Shown here piece by piece: positions 1,553 through 27,313 of a stretch of DNA of 27,313 bases. Position numbers and translations under genes: made by a program. How positions within the stretch are numbered: the stretch's first letter is position 1; the number at the start of each line of letters is the position of its first letter. Below the pieces are notes generated by a model. It did not search any database. It was not told the origin of the DNA and saw only the letters and a program-made list of their open reading frames with translations. Location of the stretch: the IMG/VR virus record IMGVR_UViG_3300028283_000501, positions 1 through 27,313 of that record; one strand, written 5' to 3'. This DNA is from a virus.

Positions 1553-4500
1553 ATGAAAGGTAATCAATTTACAGACGAACTAAGTCGCGAAATATACGAA
1601 CAAACATATAAATACGGCGATGAAACAATAGACACTACACAAGAAAGAATAGCCAGAGATATCGCTTCTAACGAAGTAGATACTGAAAAATGGACCAAAG
1701 AATTTCTTTCAGTATTAGAAGATTTTAAATTCGTTCCAGGTGGTAGAATTATATCTAACGCTGGAACACAAATCAGAGGAACGACCTACATCAATTGCCT
1801 CACTTCTGATGCTAAAGTTTTAACTAAATTTGGATATAAGAATATATCTAATGTTGAAATAGGAGATGAGGTTTTAACTCATCTTGGTAGATTTAGAAAA
1901 GTAATTAATACTATGGAAAGATTTTACGAAGGTAAAATAAATGTATATAATTCGTCTAATTTAACTTCTGATATAAAAGTCACACTAGAACATCCATTTT
2001 ATCAAGGAAAAAATGAATGGGTTATTTCAAATAAAAATGAAAAGTTGGTTCTTTTTAATTATAAAGAAGAATGGAAGTGGAAAAATGGTAAGGACACAAT
2101 AAACTTATACGATTATGTTAAGGACATAAAAAGAAAAGGCATATCTAAGAACTCTGTTATTAAAGACGATAAGAGCATATATACAACTACTGATTTCATA
2201 GGCGGGAACGGTAGCAGAGTAACAAAAAAAGGGGAACCTTTAAAAAATATTATACAAATAGATGAAGATTTCGCTTATTTCATCGGAAGATTTATTGGTG
2301 ACGGTTCAACTTTTTGTGTTAATAATTCATATGAAGTAGATGGATTTAATTTAGTCTTTAATAATAAAGAAAAAAAATCAGTCGAAAGAATTAAAAATAT
2401 TTTAGAAAAAAAGGTTGGCATTTCAATGAATGAAAATAAAGGGGATTTTGACGGATTTTATTTAAGAAAAAATTCTCCGCTTTTCTCATATTTTTTAATG
2501 AAAACATGTGGAAGATATTCCGATACTAAAATGGTACCAGATTATATATGGAAATCTGACAATAAGATAAAAATGTCATTTTTATTGGGATTATTTGATG
2601 CCGATGGAACAATAACAGATAGAGATATTAGAATAACGTTAAATAACGAAAATCTGATTTCAGATATACAAGCTATGTTATTGCAAGTTGGAATACCATC
2701 TACGAAAAATTCAGTTTACATTAAAGAATATCCAGATAAAGTTTATTATCAACTATCTTTAACTACATTATATTCTAAAGAATTCGTAAAATTATTAAGT
2801 AAAATTTATGATGATAATAGAATTTCTGAATTCTTATTGAAAAATATTTCAGATGATAGCAAAGGACAGTTTCAATATTCTGTAAAAGAGGAAGAAAATG
2901 ATGTAGACGGTAAAATTTTCGTAGTAAATAAGTTTAATAAAACAGAAGAAGATCTATCTGATTTTGTTTATAATATTTCAGTTGAAGAAGATGAAAGTTA
3001 TGTTATTAATAACGTTGTCGTTCATAACTGTTTTGTTGACGGATTCGTTGGTAAAGACCAAGATTCAATAGGTGGAATACTCGAGGCTCTAAAAAGACAA
3101 GCCTTTATCCTTAAATCAGAAGGAGGTTACGGATTTTGCGCAGACGTTATGCGTCCTAGAGGTGGTTATATCGAAGGTATAGCTAATGATACACCAGGAG
3201 CTGTTAAATGGCTTGATAACTGGAACACTCAATCAGACGTTATCACCGCAGGAAGTGGTAGAAAATCTGGTAACAAAAAGGCTAAACAGAAAATTCGTAA
3301 AGGCGCTCAAATGGTCACCATGTCTTGCTGGCATCCTGATATTGAAGAATTTATTACCGCTAAACAAACATCGGGTAGATTAGATAAATTCAATATGAGT
3401 TTACTTATTACTGACGATTTTATGGACGCTGTTATGAACAACAAAAAATGGGATCTAATTTTCCCAGATTTCGATAAAGTAAAACAATACTACAACAATA
3501 ACTGGGACGGTAATATAGGTAAATGGATTCTGGATGGAAATCCAGTTAAAGTCTACAAGACATTCAAAGACGCTAACGAACTATGGGATCTTATTATGAA
3601 ATCTACATATAATAGAAACGAACCCGGTGTTCTTTTTGTTGATACAATGAATAGATTAAATAACCTAGCATATTGTGAATATATCAGTGCCACCAACCCG
3701 TGTCTCGCTGGGAGTTCCATGATAGAAACTCAGCTTATCTCATTAACAATAAAGCAATTGTGGGAAGAATGGAACAGAGGAGTTAAACCATCAATTTTGG
3801 TTCATGATTTTACAAAAAAAACGGATACTTATGTGGTTCCTTCCGATGTTATTTTAACTAAACATAAAGCTTCAACAATAAAAATAGTGTTAGACAGAAC
3901 ACCAACTGGTTTAAAACATTCACATGAAATAATATGCACCCCAGAACATAAAATTTTTGTTACCTCAGAAATCGATTTTAAAGAAATAGGATATATAGAA
4001 GCAAAAGATATAAAAATAGGTTATGAATTAAAAACCCCGTATGGAACATCACCTGAAGTTATTAGTATTGTGGAAAATTATTCCGATGAGGATGTATATG
4101 ATATTGTTGTATCGGGACATAATAATTTTTATGCTAATGGTTATCTAGTTCATAATTGCGGAGAACAGATTCTGCCTATTGGTGGCGTTTGTCTTTTAGG
4201 AAATCTAAATTTAACTCAATTTATTAAAGAAGATTTAACTGGTTGGGATTACGAAAAATTAAGTAAAGTTATTCCTGTAGCTGTTAGGTTTATGGATAAC
4301 GTTAATGATTTAACTTACGTTCCTCTTGAAGATCAGAAAGATAACTTGATGAATAAGAGAAGAATTGGTCTGGGTATTCTTGGTTACGGTAGTGCTCTTC
4401 TTATAATGAAGAAAAGATATGGTAGTCCCGAGGCTATTCAACAAACAGAAGAACTTATGAGTTTTATTGCTAACACAGCTTACCAATCATCTGCACTTTT

Positions 4501-4999
4501 AGCTAAAGAAAAAGGTCCATTCTTACTTTACGATGAAGAAAAATATTTAAAGAGCGAATACCTGAAAAACCTTTCACAAGAAACTAGAGATTTAATTAAG
4601 AAATATGGAATTAGAAACTCACATTTACTTAGTATTCAACCAACTGGAAATTGTGTAAGGAAGAATACAATAATTAAAACAGATAGAGGCGAAATATCTA
4701 TTGATGATATATTTAAATTGAATAAAATTGATATTAATAAATCAATTAAGAATAAATGGTATATTCCAATATTAGATATAAAAGCCAAAACTATTAATGG
4801 ATATGGAAGAATAACAGGATTGTATATCAATGATAAAAAAAATATTTTATCAATAAAAACAAAAAACAACAATCTAATTGAAGGCACATTAGAGCATAAA
4901 GTTTTGGTTAAAATAAACGATAAAGAAGCTATTTGGAAAAAATTAGATGATTTAAAAGTTGGTGACAAAATACTAAAAGAGAAAATACGACCTGTTTAA
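1553..4999 (+). CDS. nrdJ: Class II ribonucleotide reductase, N-terminal precursor with two full inteins and a third intein's N-half
   Basis: This encodes the N-terminal 1148-residue precursor of a probably cobalamin-dependent ribonucleotide reductase, which makes deoxyribonucleotides for phage replication. Extein segments are residues 1-81 (FVPGGRIISNAG), 493-716 (CFVDG, GGYGF, ending SATNP) and 869-1033 (CGEQILPIGG to SIQPTGN). Joined, they give the usual reductase motifs FVPGGR, NCFV and NPCGEQ, ending at PTGN just before the C-terminal part encoded at 6341-7477. The whole spliced protein would be 849 residues. Inteins occupy residues 82-492, 717-868 and 1034-1148. The class II call rests on NrdJ-like motifs, the Cys-rich C-terminus of the partner piece and the absence of a nearby nrdB; a class I enzyme is less likely. 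The gene starts at ATG 1553 without a Shine-Dalgarno sequence, 63 bp after the acidic protein gene. Confidence 0.85.
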   Translation: MKGNQFTDELSREIYEQTYKYGDETIDTTQERIARDIASNEVDTEKWTKEFLSVLEDFKFVPGGRIISNAGTQIRGTTYINCLTSDAKVLTKFGYKNISNVEIGDEVLTHLGRFRKVINTMERFYEGKINVYNSSNLTSDIKVTLEHPFYQGKNEWVISNKNEKLVLFNYKEEWKWKNGKDTINLYDYVKDIKRKGISKNSVIKDDKSIYTTTDFIGGNGSRVTKKGEPLKNIIQIDEDFAYFIGRFIGDGSTFCVNNSYEVDGFNLVFNNKEKKSVERIKNILEKKVGISMNENKGDFDGFYLRKNSPLFSYFLMKTCGRYSDTKMVPDYIWKSDNKIKMSFLLGLFDADGTITDRDIRITLNNENLISDIQAMLLQVGIPSTKNSVYIKEYPDKVYYQLSLTTLYSKEFVKLLSKIYDDNRISEFLLKNISDDSKGQFQYSVKEEENDVDGKIFVVNKFNKTEEDLSDFVYNISVEEDESYVINNVVVHNCFVDGFVGKDQDSIGGILEALKRQAFILKSEGGYGFCADVMRPRGGYIEGIANDTPGAVKWLDNWNTQSDVITAGSGRKSGNKKAKQKIRKGAQMVTMSCWHPDIEEFITAKQTSGRLDKFNMSLLITDDFMDAVMNNKKWDLIFPDFDKVKQYYNNNWDGNIGKWILDGNPVKVYKTFKDANELWDLIMKSTYNRNEPGVLFVDTMNRLNNLAYCEYISATNPCLAGSSMIETQLISLTIKQLWEEWNRGVKPSILVHDFTKKTDTYVVPSDVILTKHKASTIKIVLDRTPTGLKHSHEIICTPEHKIFVTSEIDFKEIGYIEAKDIKIGYELKTPYGTSPEVISIVENYSDEDVYDIVVSGHNNFYANGYLVHNCGEQILPIGGVCLLGNLNLTQFIKEDLTGWDYEKLSKVIPVAVRFMDNVNDLTYVPLEDQKDNLMNKRRIGLGILGYGSALLIMKKRYGSPEAIQQTEELMSFIANTAYQSSALLAKEKGPFLLYDEEKYLKSEYLKNLSQETRDLIKKYGIRNSHLLSIQPTGNCVRKNTIIKTDRGEISIDDIFKLNKIDINKSIKNKWYIPILDIKAKTINGYGRITGLYINDKKNILSIKTKNNNLIEGTLEHKVLVKINDKEAIWKKLDDLKVGDKILKEKIRPV
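1796..3028 (+). other. NrdJ intein 1, with LAGLIDADG endonuclease domain
   Basis: This 411-residue in-frame intein is inserted between YIN and CFVDG. It starts with Cys82 (CLTSDAKVLTKFG, block A), has block B TLEHPF, and ends ...YVINNVVVHN before the extein Cys, as required for splicing. Two LAGLIDADG-type motifs are visible: FAYFIGRFIGDGS (residues 240-252) and FLLGLFDADGT (residues 343-353), each with the acidic Asp that binds metal. Splicing residues (Cys1, TxxH, terminal His-Asn, +1 Cys) and both endonuclease motifs are present, so it looks functional both for splicing and for homing. Confidence 0.9.
3701..4156 (+). other. NrdJ intein 2, mini-intein without endonuclease
   Basis: This 152-residue intein is inserted directly before the conserved NP-CGEQ cysteine of the reductase. 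It begins CLAGSSMIETQLISL, has block B CTPEHKIFV and ends VYDIVVSGHNNFYANGYLVHN, followed by the extein Cys. There is no room for an endonuclease domain. The start CLAGSS and the end HNNFYANGYLVHN resemble the known split NrdJ-1 intein (CLVGSS..., HNFFANDILVHN), but here the two halves are continuous. Confidence 0.9.
4652..4996 (+). other. NrdJ intein 3, N-terminal half of a split intein
   Basis: These 115 codons run from Cys1034 (CVRKNTIIKTDRG, block A) after the extein PTGN, through block B IEGTLEHKVLV, to DDLKVGDKIL and a stop codon. The size and content match a canonical split-intein N-half. The matching C-half begins 1.2 kb downstream at 6194. A TTTAATATATAAAA promoter motif follows directly after the stop codon. 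Confidence 0.85.
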
Positions 5000-5000
5000 T

Positions 5001-5016
5001 TTTAATATATAAAATA
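5001..5016 (+). promoter_or_regulatory. Late-promoter-like motif before the homing endonuclease gene
   Basis: TTTAATATATAAAATA lies in the 34-bp gap between the stop codon of the NrdJ N-part and the ATG of the endonuclease. The endonuclease, and the downstream NrdJ C-part, could therefore be transcribed on their own. The same motif occurs before the genes at 12623, 16192 and 22758. Confidence 0.55.
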
Positions 5017-5033
5017 AAAAATAAGTTGGTTGT

Positions 5034-6197
5034 ATGAGTAAATTAAATTTGAGTTGGTATATAAAAAAGTATGGGGAAGAAGAAGGGAAAAAAAGATTTG
5101 ATAATAGAAAAAACACAGTAAATACATTAGAGTGGTACGTTAATAATTTTGGAGAAGAAGAAGGGAAGAGGAGATATGATGATAAAAATAAAAATATTGG
5201 GAAATCTTCGGTTGGAAAAAACAGTTTAGAAGGATTTATTAAGAGATATGGAGAGATAGATGGTAAAATAAAATATGAAGAATTTGTTAATAAATCTAAA
5301 CACACAAAAGAGAAATATATAAAAGAATTTGGAGAAAATATAGGAAAAGATAAATGGGAAAATTATGTAGATAAAAAGAAATCAACATCAAAAAGATCAA
5401 TTGATTATTGGTTAAACGTCTTCGATGGCGATTACGATCTAGCTCTTAGGAATCAAAAATCTTATCAATCAAGAGGCGAAGATTTTTATGTGAATTTGTA
5501 TGGTGAAGACAAAGGGAAACAGAAATGGGATGATAGAAAATCCGATCAAAGTGATAAGATATCTAAGTTAATGTTAGATAAAGATAATAGAGATAAACAT
5601 ATATTATCGAGAGATAATTTTATTATTAAATATGGTGAAGATGTTGGAAATAAAAAATGGGAGGAACATTTAAAAAATAGAAAAAATTTTAGAACCACTT
5701 ATAATGATTTTATACTTAAATATGGGGAAGATGAAGGAAAACAAAAATGGAAAGAGCATATATTTAAAATAATTAAAATAGATCCGACATATTCAAAAGT
5801 TTCTCAATTATTATTCGATGATATATATAATTTATTAGATGATAATATGAAAAATAATATTTATTACGGTTCCTTAAATAAAGAATATTTTATATATAAT
5901 AAAGATAGTAAAAAAATATTCTATTATGATTATGTGATGAATGATATAAAATTGATAATTGAATTTAATGGCGATTATTGGCACGCTAATCCTACTATTT
6001 ATGTAGATGATTTTTATCATACAATAAGAAAAATGACAGCGAAAGACATATGGGAGGCTCAGAAATATAAAAACAAATTGGCTGAAAATAAAGGTTATCA
6101 AGTTATAGAAATATGGGAAAGTGATTATAGGAAAGATAAAAATTCTGTTAAAAATCTTTGCTTAGATATAATTAAAAATAAATATAAAAAAACATGA
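5034..6197 (+). CDS. Vsr-like homing endonuclease lying between split-intein halves
   Basis: This 387-residue protein probably cuts intein-less nrdJ alleles to spread the interruption. The N-terminal two thirds hold seven copies of a module with core [FY]xxxYGExxGKxKW, for example WYIKKYGEEEGKKRF, FIIKYGEDVGNKKW and FILKYGEDEGKQKW, presumably DNA-binding. The C-terminal about 130 residues contain FYYDYVMNDIKLIIEFNGDYWHANP followed by a KNKLAENKGYQVIEIWESDYRKD tail. This is the pattern of the Vsr-like (EDxHD) nuclease family known from fractured phage genes and I-Bth0305I. The stop codon overlaps the ATG of the NrdJ C-part (ATGA), so translation is probably coupled. It is more AT-rich than the neighbouring reductase exteins. 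The nuclease class is a family judgement by eye; activity is inferred. Confidence 0.75.
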   Translation: MSKLNLSWYIKKYGEEEGKKRFDNRKNTVNTLEWYVNNFGEEEGKRRYDDKNKNIGKSSVGKNSLEGFIKRYGEIDGKIKYEEFVNKSKHTKEKYIKEFGENIGKDKWENYVDKKKSTSKRSIDYWLNVFDGDYDLALRNQKSYQSRGEDFYVNLYGEDKGKQKWDDRKSDQSDKISKLMLDKDNRDKHILSRDNFIIKYGEDVGNKKWEEHLKNRKNFRTTYNDFILKYGEDEGKQKWKEHIFKIIKIDPTYSKVSQLLFDDIYNLLDDNMKNNIYYGSLNKEYFIYNKDSKKIFYYDYVMNDIKLIIEFNGDYWHANPTIYVDDFYHTIRKMTAKDIWEAQKYKNKLAENKGYQVIEIWESDYRKDKNSVKNLCLDIIKNKYKKT

Positions 6198-6340
6198 AAG
6201 AAGATATAATTGATATAGAAAAATTGGAATTAGAAGAAGAAATAATATCGTCCATAAATTTAATAAATGATTATACTGTCGATATAGAAGTTGAAAACGA
6301 TCATCATTATATATTAAAAAATGGTATAATATCTCATAAT
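6194..6340 (+). other. NrdJ intein 3, C-terminal half of the split intein
   Basis: Its 49 residues end in block F/G YTVDIEVENDHHYILKNGIISHN with the extein Ser as +1 residue. Together with the N-half at 4652-4996 it contains every splicing block: Cys1, TxxH, the penultimate His and the terminal Asn. The acidic, helical first 25 residues may help the two halves associate. Confidence 0.85.
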
Positions 6341-7480
6341 TCGAGCATATTAGCGAATGTCGCTTCAGGTGGACTTGAACCAGTATTTTTATTTGAATAC
6401 GTGAGAACTGTTATTCAACCATATGCACCTGAAGGTCTTGAATTACCACAGAGTGTAGATTGGGTTGGATTATCATTTGGAATGTCAGGTAAAGATGGTA
6501 AACCAAACCAAGAATGGAAATGGGTTAAAGAAGGTGATGAGAACATGTTAAAAACAGAATTTAACGGTATTATCTTTAAATATGATAGAGGTCGTGGTAT
6601 TCTTAAAGAATCTGTTGTTAAAGATTACGGTGTTAGATTCTTAGAGTCTAGAGGTGAGTGGGATCCTAACGCAAATTGGGCAGCCAATATTAATAACTTA
6701 AAAATAGAAGAACATATTAATTCAATGAAAGTAATTTCGAAGTATATTGATTCTTCTATGTCTAAGACTATCAATCTTCCAAGTGATTATAAATTTGAAG
6801 ATTTCAAACACGTTTATATTGATCTTTATAAGAGTGGAACTATCAAAGGTGGAACTACTTATAGGGCGGGAACAATGGCTACTGTTATTAAGAAAAAAGA
6901 TGAAGAAGAAGTTCAACAAGCAACACAAGAAAATAATGTACCAAAACGTCCAAAAGTTTTAGAATGTGACGTAGTAAGATTTACCAATAAAGGCGAAAAA
7001 TGGATTGGTTTTATTGGGTTGAAAAATGCTTCACCTTACGAAATATTCACTGGTCTTGCTGAATCTTTTGTTGTACCTGGTTGGGTAGAAAAAGGATTTA
7101 TAAGAAAAGAGAAAGTAAAGAATAAAGAAGGTGTTCTAGTGTCAAGGTACGATTTTGTATATAAAGATAAAGAAGATTACGAAGTTATAATGACTGGATT
7201 AAATAGAGCTTTCCAACGTGAATATTGGAACATCGGTAAAATGACCAGTGCTCTTTTAAGACACCATATTCATCTTCCATCAGTAATTGAGATTGTAGAA
7301 TCTTTAAATCTTGACGGAGACGTAATGGGAACATGGAAGAAAGGTATGACCAGAATGTTAAAGAAGTATGTAAAACCAGAAGACGGTGGAGATACTTGTC
7401 CAGTTTGTGGATCTAGTAATCTGGTATATAAGGAAAATTGTATATCTTGTTTAGATTGTTCTTGGAGTAAATGTGAATAA
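6194..7480 (+). CDS. nrdJ: Class II ribonucleotide reductase, C-terminal part preceded by a split-intein C-half
   Basis: This 428-residue precursor has a 49-residue intein C-half (6194-6340) followed by 379 residues of reductase. The first extein residues are SSILANVASGGLEPVFLFEYVRT, the continuation of the PTG(N/T)SS..A..SGG.EP.F motif that closes the nucleotide-phosphate site. Near the end, TCPVCGSSNLVYKENCISCLDC gives two paired cysteine sets. These are typical of NrdJ C-termini, where a mobile tail re-reduces the active site. Trans-splicing with the upstream precursor would give the complete enzyme. It is followed after 3 bp by a strong bidirectional terminator. The start ATG overlaps the endonuclease stop codon. 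Confidence 0.85.
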   Translation: MKEDIIDIEKLELEEEIISSINLINDYTVDIEVENDHHYILKNGIISHNSSILANVASGGLEPVFLFEYVRTVIQPYAPEGLELPQSVDWVGLSFGMSGKDGKPNQEWKWVKEGDENMLKTEFNGIIFKYDRGRGILKESVVKDYGVRFLESRGEWDPNANWAANINNLKIEEHINSMKVISKYIDSSMSKTINLPSDYKFEDFKHVYIDLYKSGTIKGGTTYRAGTMATVIKKKDEEEVQQATQENNVPKRPKVLECDVVRFTNKGEKWIGFIGLKNASPYEIFTGLAESFVVPGWVEKGFIRKEKVKNKEGVLVSRYDFVYKDKEDYEVIMTGLNRAFQREYWNIGKMTSALLRHHIHLPSVIEIVESLNLDGDVMGTWKKGMTRMLKKYVKPEDGGDTCPVCGSSNLVYKENCISCLDCSWSKCE

Positions 7481-14763: not shown

Positions 14764-14790
14764 TACTACTACACTGAAAGTGTAGTAGTT
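14764..14790 (-). repeat. Right-end hairpin of the TnpB element
   Basis: ACTACTACAC-tgaaa-GTGTAGTAGT (from about 14765) is a perfect 10-bp stem with a 5-base loop, directly after the tnpB stop codon. Subterminal hairpins here are typical of IS605-family right ends. In TnpB systems the 3' end of tnpB plus this end forms the guide RNA (omega/reRNA) scaffold, with the guide taken from flanking DNA. That would be the phage sequence below 14760 on the minus strand. Confidence 0.65.
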
Positions 14791-16041
14791 TCAGGAAATT
14801 GATTCCTTCTCTTTAAGCGTTTCGTTGCTTGTGCCTAATTTCTTGGGTCTTATTTTTGCTCCACGCTCGTAATCAGTCGTTCCAACTGATATATTTTTCC
14901 TATATCCTTCGTTGAGGATATTAGTTGCCGCGTTAAAATCTCTATCGTGCTTCTCACCACATTTAGGACAAATCCAAGTTCTGTCTTTTAGTGTTAAACC
15001 ATTATTGATCCAACCACATTTAGAACAGGTTTTAGATGATGGAAAAAACCTATCAATATGGATTACTTGCTTGTCGTTCCACCCTGCTTTGTATTCTAAA
15101 ACATCTATGAAAGTTCCCCACGCAACATCAAGGATAGATTTATTTAATCCTGATTTTGCTGATTGACCGTTAGGTAAGTATTTTCCATTTTCGTTCTGTT
15201 TTGGCTTACACCTGTGAGACATTCCTTTTATATTAAGGTCTTCTAGATATATTATATCAAAGTTCTTGATTAAATTAGTGGTTGTTTTTTGTATTAAATC
15301 CTGTCTTGAATTAGTAATCTTTTCGTAAATTCTAGCAACTTTTATTCTTTGTTGCTCATAACGATTTGATTGATTGGTCTTTCTTGATAGATATTGTTGA
15401 TTTAATTTTAATTGATGTTGATAGTGTCTTAAAAATCTATGGTTCTTGATTTTCGTTCCATTAGACAACACTAAAAAATCTTTTATTCCTAAATCTATTC
15501 CTACTGATAGTCCTGTTTTACTAACAGGTATATATTCTTGTTCTGTTAGAATTGAAACAAAGTATTTTCCGGTAGGAGTTTTTGATATATTTGCTCTTTT
15601 GATTGTTCCTTTAATTTTTCTTTCCATTATCATTTTTATGCCTTCAATGAATTTTGGAATAATTAATTTAGTTCCATCATATCTTACATTTTGTGGCACA
15701 GTAAATGAGTTTTTTGATTTCCTTGATTTAAATTTAGGAAATTTTGCTCTTCCAGCAAAAAATCCAGCATATGCTGTTTCTAAACATTTTAAAGAAAATT
15801 GTAATGTCTGGGCGTTTATTTCTTTCAGCCATTGTTTATCATTGTTTTTTTTCAATTGAGTTAAATAACCAGACTGTTTATTATATGTTAGTGATGCTTT
15901 ATTATTCAAGTATTCCTCTTTTCTTTGATTTAAAAAATAATTATAAGTCCATCTAACAGAACCAAAATGCTTGGCTAAAAGAATTGATTGTTCCTTTGTT
16001 GGTTCTATCCTGAATTTATATGTATATTTAATTACTTTCAA
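14791..16041 (-). CDS. tnpB: TnpB RNA-guided nuclease of an IS200/IS605-type element
   Basis: This 416-residue protein, read from a TTG start at 16041 (MKVIKYTYKFRIEPTKEQ), has the usual TnpB N-terminus and length. The frame stays open to 16140, but that extension has no family similarity. The RuvC catalytic residues are all present: GIDLGIKDF (Asp), DIIYLEDLNIKGM (Glu) and HDRDFNAATNI (Asp). A zinc ribbon CSKCGW...CPKCGE lies between the last two. It looks intact, so it can probably make an RNA-guided double-strand cut that preserves the element at its site. It is oriented against the surrounding baseplate genes and has no recognisable promoter of its own. Confidence 0.85.
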   Translation of the reverse strand: MKVIKYTYKFRIEPTKEQSILLAKHFGSVRWTYNYFLNQRKEEYLNNKASLTYNKQSGYLTQLKKNNDKQWLKEINAQTLQFSLKCLETAYAGFFAGRAKFPKFKSRKSKNSFTVPQNVRYDGTKLIIPKFIEGIKMIMERKIKGTIKRANISKTPTGKYFVSILTEQEYIPVSKTGLSVGIDLGIKDFLVLSNGTKIKNHRFLRHYQHQLKLNQQYLSRKTNQSNRYEQQRIKVARIYEKITNSRQDLIQKTTTNLIKNFDIIYLEDLNIKGMSHRCKPKQNENGKYLPNGQSAKSGLNKSILDVAWGTFIDVLEYKAGWNDKQVIHIDRFFPSSKTCSKCGWINNGLTLKDRTWICPKCGEKHDRDFNAATNILNEGYRKNISVGTTDYERGAKIRPKKLGTSNETLKEKESIS

Positions 16042-16123
16042 TTTTATACCATTTATTTTTCTGGTATAAGTATATATTAAATGAAAAAAGTCATTTTTTT
16101 CTAAAATAGAAAAATATTTTACC

Positions 16124-16156
16124 TGTCGATAAATTTCCAATTATAAAATTTCGACA
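16124..16156 (-). repeat. Left-end imperfect hairpin of the TnpB element
   Basis: TGTCGATAAATTT and AAATTTCGACA pair apart from a two-base bulge, around the sequence ccaattata. It lies upstream of tnpB and 9 bp before the phage promoter motif, where the element's left end is expected. The assignment is inferred from position and symmetry. Confidence 0.45.
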
Positions 16157-16164
16157 AGACTAAA

Positions 16165-16180
16165 TTTAATATATAAAAGA
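16165..16180 (+). promoter_or_regulatory. Late-promoter-like motif before the baseplate hub gene
   Basis: TTTAATATATAAAAGA lies 13 bp before the GTG start at 16192. It is identical over 14 bases to the copy at 12592-12607. It lies outside the TnpB element, so the insertion left this promoter intact. Confidence 0.6.
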
Positions 16181-16191
16181 AAAACTATTTC

Positions 16192-17571
16192 GTGATAGAA
16201 GTAATAACCAGATCAGGTAAAAAACTGGTACCTCTAAAATTTGATTACAAAGAAGGGGTTAAAGATAAAGACGCTAAAAGTTACGCTGAAGACATCGGTA
16301 AGATGCCGTATATTGTTATGAACGGTGTTACAATTGAAAGTAAAGATATAACTTATTTTAAATTACACAATGATAGATATTTACCTGAAATAGAAATGAC
16401 TTTTTCTGATCCAACAAATAAAATATTCGATTCAAAATATCCTTTAGATCAACAAAAGATAAGTTTACTAATAAAGGCCAATGAAACATTACTTATGCCA
16501 ATAAGAATGGATTTCTGGATAACAGAATTTGGTTCAGCAAAAAGTAAAGGTGGAGATTCAGATAGTAAAGTCTACGATTTAGTGGCAAAATTAGATGTCC
16601 CTCTTATTATTAAGAACTCAAGTTTTAAAGGAACAAGTTACGAAGTTCTAAAGAAAATTGCAGAACAAACTGAAATGGGATTTGCTTCAAATATAGAGAA
16701 CGATACAAATGATAGTATGACTTGGATTAATTGTGGAATCGACTACGTTAGAGAACAAATACCAGAAATTGTAAAACGTTCTTATATAAGCGATAATACT
16801 TTTTTATGGGCTTACGTTGATTTTTGGTACAATCTTAATTACATTGATATTGAAAAACAACTAAGTTTAAGTACTAAAGACGATAAAGGTTTACCTGGAT
16901 GTGAAAGATTAAGTGGTGAGCAGAAAACCATACCTCTTATTTTATCTAATCATCCTAACTATAATCAAACAAATCAGTATATTGATAAATTTAATTTATT
17001 GAATAATTCTACTGATGTTAATTTTAAATTGGGTTATAATCCTCATATTTATTACTACATGACTAAAGAGAAGAATGTATCTAATGTTTTATTAGATACA
17101 ATATCTACTAAGGGTGATAAAAGTGATAAAATAGTTATGAAAGGACAACCAACTGATAATAATTACGGATTAGATCAACAGAAGAACTATTTTATTGGTA
17201 AAAATGATACTGATAATTCACATAAAAATTACTTATACGCTGAGCAATTGAATCTTCATAATATTGATTTCTTACAAAAAATCAGAATGGTTATAGTTCT
17301 AGGTACTATTAATTTTGGATTATATAGATTTCAACCTGTTAATATTCAGTTATATAAAACTAAAGAATTAGATGATAATCCAAATCCAGTGACAGTTGAT
17401 GACGTTAAAACTTCTAAGGACGTTGATAAATATAAATTGAATGAAAGGTTGAGCGGGGACTGGCTTATAATAGGAATAAATTATTCTTTTACTAATGGTG
17501 GAAGTTTAACACAAGAAATAACAGTTATAAGAAGAGAACTAAGTGCAGCTAAAATAGCCAAAAATAGCTAA
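16192..17571 (+). CDS. Baseplate hub protein, gp27/gpD-like
   Basis: This 459-residue protein starts at GTG (MIEVITRSGKK), the first start after the promoter motif. The domain order suits a hub protein. An N-terminal beta domain (MNGVTIESKDITYFKLHNDRYLPEIEMTFSD) and a second one (LMPIRMDFWITEF) are followed by SSFKGTSYEVLKKIAEQTEMGFASN. That segment is the typical helix of gpD/gp27 folds, where the hub senses partner proteins. The C-terminus, LSGDWLIIGINYSFTNGGSLTQEITVIRREL, is a characteristic ending of this family. It forms the central trimer that holds the spike and the tube. It is followed by the large repeat-containing protein after 18 bp and by the gp5-like spike two genes on, as expected for a hub module. 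Confidence 0.65.
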   Translation: MIEVITRSGKKLVPLKFDYKEGVKDKDAKSYAEDIGKMPYIVMNGVTIESKDITYFKLHNDRYLPEIEMTFSDPTNKIFDSKYPLDQQKISLLIKANETLLMPIRMDFWITEFGSAKSKGGDSDSKVYDLVAKLDVPLIIKNSSFKGTSYEVLKKIAEQTEMGFASNIENDTNDSMTWINCGIDYVREQIPEIVKRSYISDNTFLWAYVDFWYNLNYIDIEKQLSLSTKDDKGLPGCERLSGEQKTIPLILSNHPNYNQTNQYIDKFNLLNNSTDVNFKLGYNPHIYYYMTKEKNVSNVLLDTISTKGDKSDKIVMKGQPTDNNYGLDQQKNYFIGKNDTDNSHKNYLYAEQLNLHNIDFLQKIRMVIVLGTINFGLYRFQPVNIQLYKTKELDDNPNPVTVDDVKTSKDVDKYKLNERLSGDWLIIGINYSFTNGGSLTQEITVIRRELSAAKIAKNS

Positions 17572-17589: not shown

Positions 17590-20500
17590 ATGGAAGATAG
17601 TAACTTAATGACCGTTAACAAATATTTGAAAGGTTACAATAGTAACACAAGAGAGGTTATAGAACCAGGGTTTGTAGACGTGCAAACAACTGTCGACTAT
17701 GACTCTGGTAACTTTAAATACGGATCGGAATATATTGGTACGGATAGTTACCAAGATCCATTATTTTTCTTTCAAGATCCTCTTTTAACTACATTTGATA
17801 TTATTCTAGATACCACAAATTCACCACTTTTTATAAACGGCACTAATAGTTTAGACGGTTTCTTACAAGATTATAGTGAAATATATTCAATAAGAGCAAG
17901 ACAAAAAGTACATCAAGAATTTAAAAGAACTATATACAACCTATTCAACGCTGAATTTAAACCAATAGATAGAAACAAATCTTATTACATAAATAGTATA
18001 GCAGGACTAGATAAATTTACAGCAAGAATTGTTGACTTCGAAAAGGATAAAATTACTATTAACCTCAATGAAGACGTATCAATGATCGCAGGCTACCTCG
18101 CTCAATTGTATAACAACTTATCGTACTCTTACAGAGATCAAAGACAAATGATACCAGCTAACTTATTGAGATTCAATATGTACGTGAAAGTACATGATGT
18201 TAGGAATATGCCTTTTTACATACCAACAACAGGTGAGACTACAATAACCTCTTTTAATAAGTCATACCAGATATATTTGTTAAGAGATTGTACTTTTGAT
18301 TTTAGGAAGTCAAAGAATTTTGATGATTCTATAACTGTTGGTGGATTTGACGCTGGTGCTCCAACTAAACCTTCTACTATATCAATTGATGTTGTTTATA
18401 AGTCTATTGAGGTAGAATCTGAATATCCATTAATTATGGATAATTTCTCTAATCCTGAAAGTACAGCGTTGAAAATGAATAATAAAGATAAAGATATTCT
18501 AGCTTATATTGATGGATTAAATACTGTTTTCACAAATAACGCAAAATTACCAGAAGATTTTGCTGCTCAAATATCTTCTGATAGTGAATTAAATAACGAT
18601 GGTACATCGCCTTTATCAATCAATGCTACTAAAGAAGATAAAGATAAAGCTGCGAAAGATAATTATAAAGGTGGAGTAGTATCATCTGATAACGGAAGTA
18701 AGACAAGAGAAAGTGATATAAAGGGGTTTAATAGAGGTTGGGAACCAGCAGTTAAAAATAGTGACGTTACAACTGATGTTACTGTAACAACCAACGCTGA
18801 CGTATATAGTGCACATGCTTCTGATCTTGATAGTTCAAGAGGATGGCAGCCAGAAGTTCAAGGTGGTGACGTAACAACAGATACATCTGTAACAACATTC
18901 GCTGACGTACAATTTGCACACTCTTCTGATTTAGACGGAACAAGAGGTTGGACACCGGAAATTATTTCAAGTGATATAAACTCAGACACTTCTGTAACAA
19001 CATTCGCTGACGTACAATTTGCACACTCTTCTGATTTAGAAAGTGTACCATATATGTTTGATCCATCTGTTTTTGGAAGTGATTGGAATTACGGTTTTGG
19101 TTACGCTGGTCCCGAGATGGATTCTATAAGAATTAGTATAATGTCCCAATTGAATTTCAATTTAGCTGGACTTTTATTCAGTTTGCCTTTCAGAATAATA
19201 GGTGCTTTTTTTGGTGGTTATCACGGAATGCAAGAAATGTATATTGATACATATGCTCCAAATATTCCAGCAATGCCAGATATAAATGTGAATAAAACTT
19301 CTCCTCACATTCAAGAAGCATTAACTGGTAGTATAGATACTACTATTAAAACACAAGATCCTTTAACAGGATCAATAGATACAAATATTAAACCAATTGT
19401 ACCATTAACTGGTTCAATTGATACAACATTTAAACCGCAAGTGCCTTTAAATGTAAAAATTGATACGACTTTTGATACTAAAGAACCTTTAACTGGAACA
19501 ATTAACACTTCATTCGATCCTAAGAAACCTTTATCTGGATCAATTAATACAGCTTTTAAACCTAAACCATTATTGTTTGGTTATATAGGTACTTCATTTA
19601 CTCCACATCCACCAGTTAGTGGAACAATTGATACATCATTTAGACCACACCCACCTGTTAGCGGTGTAATAGACACGTCATTCAGACCACATCCACCAGT
19701 GAGTGGAACAATTGATACTACCGCAAATCCACACCCACCAGTAAGTGGAACAATTGATACATCATTTAAACCTCATCCACCAGTGAGTGGAACAATAGAC
19801 ACTTCATTTACTCCACATCCTCCTGTTAGTGGTGTTATAAGTACTTCATTTAAACAACAAGTGCCTTTAACTGGAACAATTGATACAACATCAAGGGCAC
19901 AAGGAGAAGTTATTCTTGGATCTTTATATACAAATGATTACAAGGAAAGAAATGTTAATTTAGGATTATTATATCTTGGTGTAACACACGAAAATATATT
20001 ACCTATAACTTATCTTTACGCTAAATCAGAGAAGTTCAATAGTTTAGCAAATTATTACGTATCTAATAACGCTGTAAGTGAAAATAAAAAACTTTTCAAT
20101 TTATCTATTGATCAGACAGTAAGAACTCTTACTCCATTCGAATTGATATATGAATATAATAATAACATAGATGTTAATAAAACATTGAATAATATCACAT
20201 TATATAATAATGAAATTAATAGAGTTAATAATATGGTAGCATTGAATGTTATAGATAGTATAAGAACAAAACCTGATTTCACAGAAGTAAAATTGTATAA
20301 CAATACTAATTTTGAAAAAACTTTGGCTTTAAGATATTTATATGATAAAGTTGAAGATAATAAAGTATTAGGTAGAGAATATTTATACGAAAAAGTTATC
20401 AATGATAAAAAATTGGATGGTCAATTGATTTCTTTAGAAAGTAATAATGACCTTACTACTGTATTGAATTTAGGTAATATAGTAACAACTAAACCAACCG

Positions 20501-20916
20501 AAAGAGGATCTGTAGAACTTGGTTTATTATACGAACCAAGTAAGATTAAAAAGATTTTAGAACCATATAGATTATTCGAGCCAAAAACCAAGAAAACTTT
20601 GGATCTTGGAAAAATATCTGGGGATTTTATTGAGAAGAATATTAACAGTTTAGTTGAAACAGAAAGCAAAAAACCATTTGGTTTAGTTGCGGAATACGAC
20701 GCTAAACCAATAGCTGTAGTAAATAAATTAGAAGAATCGAGAAAAGATTTTGAACAATCTAAAGCAGAACAAGTAATAATTGAGGATAAACCTTTAGTTA
20801 AGCAATATATAAGTGAGAAAGAAATAAAAGATAATTCACTTCACGGTGATACAATATTTGATACAGGTGATTATAAAAAAGAAAAACCAGGATTAGACAA
20901 TGAAAGACTTAGATAA
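17590..20916 (+). CDS. Large repeat-containing baseplate/tail protein
   Basis: This 1108-residue protein is in the hub operon. Residues 1-300 form a beta-rich globular domain with ANLLRFNMYVKVHDVRNMPFYIP and IYLLRDCTFDFRKSKNF, a pattern seen in tail-tube or tube-initiator-like phage proteins. An acidic linker is followed by three 35-residue repeats (382-486), then a hydrophobic stretch LAGLLFSLPFRIIGAFFGGYHG (about 524-545). Fourteen 14-residue repeats follow (578-773, consensus LTGTIDTSFKPHPP). A 330-residue region has loosely repeated LGLLY/LYEK/LYNN strands, and the tail is charged. The 3' end overlaps the gp5-like gene by 17 bp. The exact role is unknown; a fibrous extension of the baseplate is likely. 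T4 has no obvious equivalent of this size with such repeats. Confidence 0.6.
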   Translation: MEDSNLMTVNKYLKGYNSNTREVIEPGFVDVQTTVDYDSGNFKYGSEYIGTDSYQDPLFFFQDPLLTTFDIILDTTNSPLFINGTNSLDGFLQDYSEIYSIRARQKVHQEFKRTIYNLFNAEFKPIDRNKSYYINSIAGLDKFTARIVDFEKDKITINLNEDVSMIAGYLAQLYNNLSYSYRDQRQMIPANLLRFNMYVKVHDVRNMPFYIPTTGETTITSFNKSYQIYLLRDCTFDFRKSKNFDDSITVGGFDAGAPTKPSTISIDVVYKSIEVESEYPLIMDNFSNPESTALKMNNKDKDILAYIDGLNTVFTNNAKLPEDFAAQISSDSELNNDGTSPLSINATKEDKDKAAKDNYKGGVVSSDNGSKTRESDIKGFNRGWEPAVKNSDVTTDVTVTTNADVYSAHASDLDSSRGWQPEVQGGDVTTDTSVTTFADVQFAHSSDLDGTRGWTPEIISSDINSDTSVTTFADVQFAHSSDLESVPYMFDPSVFGSDWNYGFGYAGPEMDSIRISIMSQLNFNLAGLLFSLPFRIIGAFFGGYHGMQEMYIDTYAPNIPAMPDINVNKTSPHIQEALTGSIDTTIKTQDPLTGSIDTNIKPIVPLTGSIDTTFKPQVPLNVKIDTTFDTKEPLTGTINTSFDPKKPLSGSINTAFKPKPLLFGYIGTSFTPHPPVSGTIDTSFRPHPPVSGVIDTSFRPHPPVSGTIDTTANPHPPVSGTIDTSFKPHPPVSGTIDTSFTPHPPVSGVISTSFKQQVPLTGTIDTTSRAQGEVILGSLYTNDYKERNVNLGLLYLGVTHENILPITYLYAKSEKFNSLANYYVSNNAVSENKKLFNLSIDQTVRTLTPFELIYEYNNNIDVNKTLNNITLYNNEINRVNNMVALNVIDSIRTKPDFTEVKLYNNTNFEKTLALRYLYDKVEDNKVLGREYLYEKVINDKKLDGQLISLESNNDLTTVLNLGNIVTTKPTERGSVELGLLYEPSKIKKILEPYRLFEPKTKKTLDLGKISGDFIEKNINSLVETESKKPFGLVAEYDAKPIAVVNKLEESRKDFEQSKAEQVIIEDKPLVKQYISEKEIKDNSLHGDTIFDTGDYKKEKPGLDNERLR
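18733..19047 (+). repeat. Three 105-bp (35-codon) tandem repeats in the large baseplate gene
   Basis: Units begin RGWEPAV, RGWQPEV and RGWTPEI at 18733, 18838 and 18943, and end SDL(D/E). The core TSVTTFADVQFAHSSDL is identical in units 2 and 3. A stretch of about 50 bp (18886-18937 and 18991-19042) is nearly identical in DNA, which points to a recent duplication or gene conversion. Confidence 0.9.
19321..19908 (+). repeat. Fourteen 42-bp (14-codon) tandem repeats in the large baseplate gene
   Basis: The register is exact over 588 bp. The consensus protein unit is (L/V)(T/S)GTIDTSFKPHPP. Units 1-6 are divergent, while units 8-13 are close to identical with PHPPVSG junctions. Pro-rich turns with alternating beta residues would suit a stiff fibre or beta-solenoid. 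Confidence 0.9.
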
Positions 20917-25880: not shown

Positions 25881-25958
25881 TTATTTCTTTATCAACTGTG
25901 CGTCAATGAAATCTAAATCCACTAATACTCTTTTAGTTTCCACTTTCTTATCTTTGTA
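25881..25958 (-). pseudogene. 3' end of a broken minus-strand gene
   Basis: The frame reads YKDKKVETKRVLVDLDFIDAQLIKK and then a stop codon directly before a terminator, so it looks like a genuine gene end. There is no start codon, and a stop codon (25959-25961) sits immediately upstream. In another frame, an open stretch without a start codon (25922-26044) reads RETYYLPPKKTIPEPDRLLTKLLKERDT and would join the remnant after a one-base shift near 25956. Either this is one frameshifted gene or two unrelated sequences are fused here. Confidence 0.5.
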
Positions 25959-25995
25959 TCACGTTCTTTGAGTAATTTTGTCAGTAGCCGATCCG

Positions 25996-26017
25996 GTTCC
26001 GGGATCGTCTTTTTAGG
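25996..26017 (+). terminator. GC-rich hairpin followed by T-run
   Basis: CGATCC-ggttccg-GGATCG (near 25990-26008) followed by TCTTTTT resembles a rho-independent terminator on the plus strand. It is much more GC-rich than the phage sequence to the left. Coordinates are approximate. Confidence 0.4.
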
Positions 26018-26104
26018 CGGGAGATAATAAGTTTCGCGGACTAATTATAAAATACTGATTCACAGTAATTTGTTAGAATTTAACATTTTTTAACAATTTA
26101 GTTC

Positions 26105-26134
26105 TTGACATTTGGTTTTTTTGCCTTATCTTAG
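26105..26134 (+). promoter_or_regulatory. Bacteroidota-type promoter upstream of the cassettes
   Basis: TTGACA (26105-26110) and TATCTTAG (26127-26134, one mismatch to TAnnTTTG) are spaced as TTG-N19-box. It points towards the cassette genes and could be the cassette promoter (Pc) of an integron. The remaining 130 bp up to the cassette start hold only a short reading frame. Confidence 0.5.
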
Positions 26135-26151
26135 CAGAAAAATTAAAGGCT

Positions 26152-26184
26152 ATGAAAATATTTAACATCATGTATGGGATTTAA
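26152..26184 (+). CDS. Possible 10-codon leader peptide (MKIFNIMYGI)
   Basis: A short frame starts 18 bp after the promoter box, in the context aaaggctATGAAAAT. It may be a leader peptide between promoter and first cassette, or the start of a gene broken by cassette insertion. It is too short to judge by sequence. Confidence 0.2.
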   Translation: MKIFNIMYGI

Positions 26185-26271
26185 AAGCAGTAACCTATCC
26201 ACATACATTGAACTAAATTAAAGGTACAACTGCACAATTTGGCACAAACACCCATATATTTTTTATTGTGT

Positions 26272-26280
26272 GTTATGCGC
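26272..26280 (+). other. Integron-like recombination core site at the start of cassette 1
   Basis: GTTATGCGC at the start of the cassette is the exact reverse complement of GCGCATAAC at 26532-26540. With flanks, TTGT(CA/TT)GCGCATAAC matches at 13 of 15 positions. In integrons the first bases of a cassette and the left end of its own attC are complementary, because they pair in the circular cassette. Cleavage would fall between G26272 and T26273. Confidence 0.6.
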
Positions 26281-26296
26281 TGACAATTATTGAATT

Positions 26297-26539
26297 ATGA
26301 AAGAAACACAATTTAAAGTATTAATGCACACAGGACAGTATGTAGATACTAATTTACTTGAAAAGGGTATTTATTCAACATCTCGACCAACATTATACGG
26401 CAAGGATGCAACGATTGAACTATTAGAACAACAAGGCAAAACAATGAAGGATATGACAGGTGAATTATTCATATCTGAAAAATGGTTTGAAAATTTACGA
26501 CTATGTAAATTAGTGGACGTTTCCCTTGTTTGCGCATAA
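26297..26539 (+). CDS. Cassette-borne protein of unknown function (80 aa)
   Basis: This 80-residue protein, MKETQFKVLMHTGQYVDTNLL...SEKWFENLRLCKLVDVSLVCA, has no recognised family. It fills the cassette from 17 bp after the core site, and its stop codon (TAA) lies inside the left end of the attC-like site (GCGCATAAC), as is common for integron cassettes. There is no Shine-Dalgarno sequence. It was probably expressed from the promoter at 26105 or from within the cassette. Confidence 0.6.
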   Translation: MKETQFKVLMHTGQYVDTNLLEKGIYSTSRPTLYGKDATIELLEQQGKTMKDMTGELFISEKWFENLRLCKLVDVSLVCA

Positions 26540-26626
26540 CGAGATGCAGCTACCCGAAGGCTGCCAGACAAATGACCGATTGAAACAAATAATTAGCAGC
26601 AGCTTGCGGGTAGGTGCTGTTAGCAA
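26532..26626 (+). other. attC-like site of integron cassette 1
   Basis: The site is a 95-bp imperfect inverted repeat. The left arm TAAC...CTACCCGAAGGCTGC (26537 onward) pairs with the right arm GCAGCTTGCGGGTAGG...GTTA (to 26622), leaving a few unpaired bases, and the middle forms a variable loop. It ends GTTAGCAA, the expected cut-and-join position (G26619/T26620) at which the next cassette begins. The terminal core boxes deviate slightly from the RYYYAAC/GTTRRRY consensus. Confidence 0.6.
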
Positions 26627-26663
26627 ATCGTTTAAAAATAATGCTTATAAACTCAAAAACAAA

Positions 26664-26915
26664 ATGAGTTGCTACAATAAAAGGACATGGATAAATAAAG
26701 TCACATCACCATCGACAGGGAGCGTGGTAGCATTTAATGGTGATGTTAAGTATAGCGACGGAAATGAGCGTACTACCTTTTTAGAAATATCAGATTGCTA
26801 CCATACAGTACGGATCATTAGGAATACCGAAAACATAGATGATTTTATAGATAAAATGAAATTATTGAAATCTGAAATAGAATTGTTTATTAATCATTTA
26901 GAAAAAACAAAATGA
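26664..26915 (+). CDS. Cassette-borne protein of unknown function (83 aa)
   Basis: The frame is open from 26526, but the part before 26664 lies within the attC-like site, so ATG 26664 (MSCYNKRTWINKV) is the better start. The protein has a beta-rich N-terminal half (GSVVAFNGDVKYSDGNERTTFLEISD, YHTVRIIR) and a C-terminal helix (DDFIDKMKLLKSEIELFINHLEK). I do not recognise it. Its stop codon overlaps the start of the next gene (ATGA), so the two are translated together in one cassette. Confidence 0.6.
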   Translation: MSCYNKRTWINKVTSPSTGSVVAFNGDVKYSDGNERTTFLEISDCYHTVRIIRNTENIDDFIDKMKLLKSEIELFINHLEKTK

Positions 26916-27313
26916 TAAACGTATTAAGTATTAAAGAAATAAAAGCAGGGAGTATTGTTACACGGGTATGCCCTGCCAATGGTTATTCCGGGGATGGGTC
27001 TTATGTCGGAATGAAATTGGAGCTGATTGGGATAAATAAAACTAAAATTATCCTAAAGAGTTTAGAAGATAAAGATCGGAGAGTAATCCGTCTCTCTCTG
27101 AAAGATTTACAATACGGATGGAGAAAATACGAATTAGCTGGTGACAAAAAATATGATATTACTCCCCATAATGGACGGAAAGGACAATTAAGAGTCCAAT
27201 ATGTTTATTTAGGAATTGAATTGGATAATCTAAGGGGAGGCGATCTTGATGATAAGTTTGGCGATTACCTAACTATATGCCGTTATCTTGAGAGTATTAA
27301 CTGTAATGTATAG
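26912..27313 (+). CDS. Cassette-borne protein of unknown function (133 aa)
   Basis: This 133-residue protein (MINVLSIKEIKAGSIVTRVCPANGYSGDGSYVGMKLELIGINKTKIILKS...) looks like a small beta-barrel domain followed by a mixed region, with GWRKYELAGDKKYDITPHNG and a final helix. It starts within the stop codon of the 83-aa gene. The pair could be a two-gene functional unit such as toxin-antitoxin or defence, but neither partner shows a diagnostic motif. Sequence use is less AT-rich than in the phage part. Confidence 0.55.
   Translation: MINVLSIKEIKAGSIVTRVCPANGYSGDGSYVGMKLELIGINKTKIILKSLEDKDRRVIRLSLKDLQYGWRKYELAGDKKYDITPHNGRKGQLRVQYVYLGIELDNLRGGDLDDKFGDYLTICRYLESINCNV

Follow-up and report, generated by a model that had tools for sequence, protein, structure and literature searches.

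The DNA analysed here is a linear IMG/VR record of 27,313 bases, which is probably a fragment and the whole of which constitutes the window. Most of it is similar to a megaphage genome, while its end comprises two small gene modules separated by an attC-like site. The features considered in this study are the following:

1 to 25,955 (no strand): megaphage part, colinear with LR756501 at around 623.9-646.6 kb, with about 90% identity (87-93% by segment); its genes include a TerL-like start, an intein-bearing ribonucleotide reductase, a DnaB-like helicase, a UvsX-like recombinase, and baseplate and clamp-loader genes
25,887 to 25,955 (minus): 3' remnant of a broken phage gene, the counterpart of which in LR756501 is a 174-aa lipoprotein-like ORF
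25,954 to 25,955 (no strand): junction at which the megaphage similarity stops
25,989 to 26,007 (plus): terminator-like stem-loop followed by a T run
26,105 to 26,132 (plus): promoter-like TTGACA-16-TATCTT directed toward the cassettes, a candidate cassette promoter by consensus match only
26,224 to 26,280 (plus): left boundary of cassette 1, a candidate attI or degenerate attC (GTACAAC...GTTATGC; about 5 bits, not significant)
26,273 to 26,619 (plus): cassette 1, which spans 347 bp from TTATGCGC through the G of GTTAGC and was delimited by direct reading, shuffles and left core
26,297 to 26,539 (plus): ORF1, 80 aa, predicted to form a small, well-folded domain (pLDDT 89.6) of unknown function
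26,532 to 26,624 (plus): attC-like site with R'' GCGCATAAC, arms CTACCCG/CGGGTAG and R' GTTAGC
26,620 to 27,313 (plus): start of cassette 2, the own attC of which would fall beyond the window
26,664 to 26,915 (plus): ORF2, 83 aa, 57-61% identity to proteins in the phage contigs L006, L007, L011, L012 and L039
26,912 to 27,313 (plus): ORF3, 133 aa, 50-71% identity to proteins in L006, L007, L011 and L012

LR756501 is 735,411 bp in size, and we take it to be the 735-kb Lac Pavin phage genome. This phage, described as the largest phage genome reconstructed, belongs to the Mahaphage clade and is predicted to infect Bacteroidetes (PMC7162821, PMC9875498). The match of the phage part to it agrees with the Bacteroidota-type phage context proposed in the preliminary description. 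The neighboring genes, described there as T4-like, do lie on phage DNA, but on that of a relative of a 735-kb megaphage, which is not simply T4-like.

With respect to LR756501, the record contains insertions, namely an element of the TnpB type and inteins that interrupt the ribonucleotide reductase. The TnpB-type element (14,769-16,192, with OrfB_IS605 and Cas12f1-like_TNB domains) is found amid phage genes that are contiguous in LR756501 and is apparently a precise insertion. The gene of the ribonucleotide reductase large subunit (1553-7480) is split by inteins, with three Intein_splicing matches and one LAGLIDADG match, and its inserts at approximately 1799-3024 and 4651-6345 are not present in LR756501, which carries a different insert nearby. 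Besides, a terminase-like ORF start on the minus strand (1-546) was seen by eye to run into an intein-like stretch (ASRQVGK/CIDFTSVLTV) with no Pfam match, and positions 17,590-20,916 encode a 1,108-aa protein with a long repeat array of the type GTIDTSFxPHPPVS.

Beyond the megaphage part, the tail consists, in this order, of the terminator-like stem-loop, the promoter-like pair, the box GTTATGCGC, ORF1, the attC-like site and the ORF2-ORF3 pair. Promoter-like consensus matches numbered 8 versus 4.5 expected, and Rfam returned sub-threshold chance matches only. The preliminary description had a cassette opening with GTTATGCGC and ending in an attC-like site that opens with the exact complement GCGCATAAC, with the gene stop inside that box. 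By direct reading, we found the left-core box at 26,272-26,280, the GCGCATAAC box at 26,532-26,540 and the ORF1 stop TAA at 26,537-26,539, that is, inside R'', and likewise recovered the arms CTACCCG (26,550-26,556) and CGGGTAG (26,607-26,613) and the terminal GTTAGC (26,619-26,624), all as that description had them. The R'' (xxxxAAC) and R' (GTTxxxx) boxes thus bound a hairpin with L''/L' arms, as in an attC, and the arm repeat extends to 15 nt with 87% complementarity (GTTATGCGCTGACAA / TTGTTTGCGCATAAC). R'' is complementary to the left core of its own cassette at 9/9 nt, the two being 262 bp apart.

As in a gene cassette, cassette 1 holds a single compact gene in attC orientation, the stop of which is in R''. 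The genes of both cassettes follow this orientation, with an ATG approximately 25 bp past the start of cassette 1 and approximately 45 bp past that of cassette 2. The final two residues of ORF1 are encoded by the attC end, and its relatives have other C-termini. Searches of PDB and BFVD with its predicted fold, which is good, gave no significant structural match. In cassette 2, the start of ORF2 is most likely at 26,664, a correction of the preliminary description. ORF3 overlaps ORF2 (ATGA), and its stop is the final codon of the record; as the record ends at 27,313, the predicted downstream CGATTTGCTAAC would fall past its end. The structure prediction of ORF3 (pLDDT 39.5) was unusable, and its match to the DrmC profile (19 bits) is weak and was not counted as evidence of function.

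The DNA fold of 26,532-26,628 (plus strand) reached -16.7 kcal/mol, with none of 200 shuffles as good. A structural finder that evaluates the AAC and GTT boxes, their complementarity, the pairing of the arms and the DNA fold gave -17.0 kcal/mol for the site, with 24 as the arm-pairing count. In dinucleotide shuffles of 25,954-27,313 on both strands, with thresholds matched to the observed site, a comparable hairpin appeared in 1 of 1,500 shuffles, and one accompanied by a 9-nt left core in none (0/1,500). Weaker hairpins, none with a left core, were found elsewhere in the window and in five phage stretches that were either related or served as controls, and among the 498 AAC trinucleotides of the phage part only 3 are accompanied by a 9-nt left core at a distance of up to 500 bp. 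A left core one cassette length away is a requirement of a circular cassette. A left core of 7-9 nt was present upstream of 26 of 28 attC sites of known arrays, nearly always one cassette length away, a fraction that is not an independent estimate, since the finder and the R1 model served to pick these sites, in part with an eye to the left core. The finder also recovers attC sites in class 1 arrays and in the phages TJE1, P12002L, M16-3 and MW202573. In MW202573 (L019), a phage with a published attC cluster, four attC-like sites at 2069-3738 (minus strand) were scored by an in-house model.

On the other hand, pairing between R'' and R' covers only 4 of 7 positions, the two spacers differ in length (9 and 5 nt, or 5 and 1), and the mismatches G.G and A.G occur in the arms instead of clean extrahelical bases or bulges. 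With such spacers and arms, the site is structurally atypical. The in-house attC covariance models R1 and R2 left it unscored; neither recovers the dfrA1 and P12002L sites, and several sites of Shewanella are missed as well. The missing score and the unequal spacers would fit a chance inverted repeat, that of an ordinary hairpin or terminator in the intergenic space of phage genes. The shuffle and left-core statistics argue against such a chance structure, as do the lack of a T run behind the hairpin, a terminator scan that left it uncalled, and the coincidence of the hairpin with the boundary between two gene modules, and we regard this explanation as improbable.

This boundary is defined by the relatives of the cargo genes. 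ORF1 has relatives with 49-56% identity in three uncultured phage contigs (L004, L005, L010), while the overlapping ORF2-ORF3 pair is shared with four uncultured phage contigs, a fifth having only ORF2. The two modules occur together in no record examined, and the DNA similarity to the phage relatives (26,283-26,515 and 26,649-27,312) is confined within the predicted cassette limits; judging from these distributions, the attC therefore lies precisely at the meeting point of two modules that differ in origin. No attC of comparable quality was present in any examined record with either module, and no exact attC core was found in viral contigs. Searches with tblastn revealed no relatives of ORF1-3 among annotated phages, nor of ORF1 and ORF3 among plasmids. 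In bacterial genome contigs, no relatives of ORF1 or ORF3 were confirmed, although the search by short peptide patterns used for these contigs provides weak evidence of absence.

Considering the left core, the attC geometry, the stop codon inside R'' and the position of the attC between two unrelated gene modules, the integron-type cassette proposed earlier is supported, and we conclude, with a probability of roughly 80%, that the last kilobase represents part of an integron cassette array, with the complete cassette 1 and the beginning of cassette 2. In established integron biology, an integrase acts on the folded attC and a promoter to the left of the cassettes drives their expression. Applied to this array, an integrase supplied in trans would recognize the bottom strand of the attC in its folded form and cut between the G and the TTAGC of GTTAGC, cassette 1 would be excised as a circle and inserted at an attI or a different attC, and its expression would come from a promoter on the left side, for which the pair at 26,105 is a candidate. 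Since each module is otherwise known only from uncultured phage contigs, either phage genes may have been packaged as cassettes, or cassettes may have given genes to phages that are now without attC.

A different question is how this array fragment came to lie beside megaphage genes. Colinearity with LR756501 is lost within a phage gene, 318 bp ahead of the first cassette. The last 1,358 bases gave only chance-level matches to LR756501, and the tail had no match in the plasmid collection. In LR756501 (L003:34538-38769), the genes that come after the broken gene are those of an ABC transporter (ATPase, permease and substrate-binding-like), all absent from the window. The broken gene has one distant relative, in a different neighborhood, and no other contig carries the 154-aa gene flanking the junction. 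A minus-strand peptide at 25,952-26,044 was considered as a possible intI start and rejected, as it is without a start codon and is preceded by a stop.

One explanation is an assembly or library chimera, in which a real array fragment, originating from a different phage or from a bacterium, became attached to the terminus of a megaphage contig, so that the megaphage itself is without a cassette. This is compatible with the array fragment as interpreted above, and we consider its chances to be slightly short of even. The abrupt end, within a gene, of a colinearity of about 90%, the absence of a counterpart of the next 1.36 kb in the 735-kb relative, and the short (1.36 kb) and terminal nature of the foreign stretch all point to such an artifact. 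The codon usage of ORF1-3, which is slightly closer to that of other phages than to that of this one, leans in the same direction but does not decide between insertion and chimera. Against a chimera, the join (25,954/25,955) shows no N and no obvious shared repeat that could drive graph misassembly, the tail is phage-gene DNA with a G+C content similar to that of the phage part, and the other insertions with respect to LR756501 (TnpB element, inteins) indicate that real insertions are frequent in this record.

The alternative to a chimera is a true insertion, by which an integron fragment (promoter, left boundary and cassettes) would have become accessory cargo of the megaphage in place of the lipoprotein/ABC transporter region of LR756501. 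The phage-type gene content of the cassettes and the insertion-rich genome are consistent with this, and the attC clusters of virulent phages provide a precedent (PMC9892861). However, the junction lies at neither an attC nor an attI core, so that the integron integrase did not make this end; the join was seen in no second contig; and LR756501 is without the tail sequence, ORF1, ORF3 or any attC scored by model R2. We give the true insertion the same, nearly balanced weight as the chimera, and the odds that the cassette array fragment is genuinely within the megaphage are about even. The broader proposal, that a Bacteroidota megaphage carries an array of phage-gene cassettes and that phages exchange accessory genes as integron cassettes, appears rather unlikely at present.

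If the join is real, the megaphage would be a vehicle for cassettes, and its cargo would show phage genes packaged as cassettes, thus linking two gene-exchange systems. Even if it is chimeric, the tail documents cassettes with genes of phage families. Phage-borne attC sites are few. The preliminary description considered cassettes in such a setting very unusual, which overstates the case, as integron pieces have already been detected in phages, including the Bacteroidota phage Polaribacter P12002L, and phage-borne attC clusters are already known (PMC9892861). Complete integrons are rare in Bacteroidota, with Salinibacter ruber being the one found in Bacteroidetes with IntegronFinder 2.0 (PMC9024848).

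Within the window, there is no other attC, no intI and no proven attI. The intI profile (TIGR02249) matched neither the record, which is a fragment, nor LR756501, nor three related records. A CALIN is defined by two or more consecutive attC sites in the absence of an integrase; the window holds one attC, and the record ends before the next could be seen. CALINs have been described in the virulent phages TJE1, P12002L, PH101 and MW202573 (Qi et al. 2023, PMC9892861). Unlike these, the tail has one visible attC, small phage genes of unknown function and a position in a fragment of a megaphage relative across an unverified join. It also differs from class 1 plasmid arrays and from the integron of Shewanella phage M16-3 in the lack of intI and of a proven attI, and in its attC spacers and mismatches. 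With these arrays it shares the R' start, the early ATG, the stop at or in R'', the hairpin and the next R'. As in the phage CALINs, attC-like sites are combined with cassettes and no integrase (PMC9892861), and in TJE1, P12002L and MW202573 left cores and attC geometry were found with the same finder as applied here.
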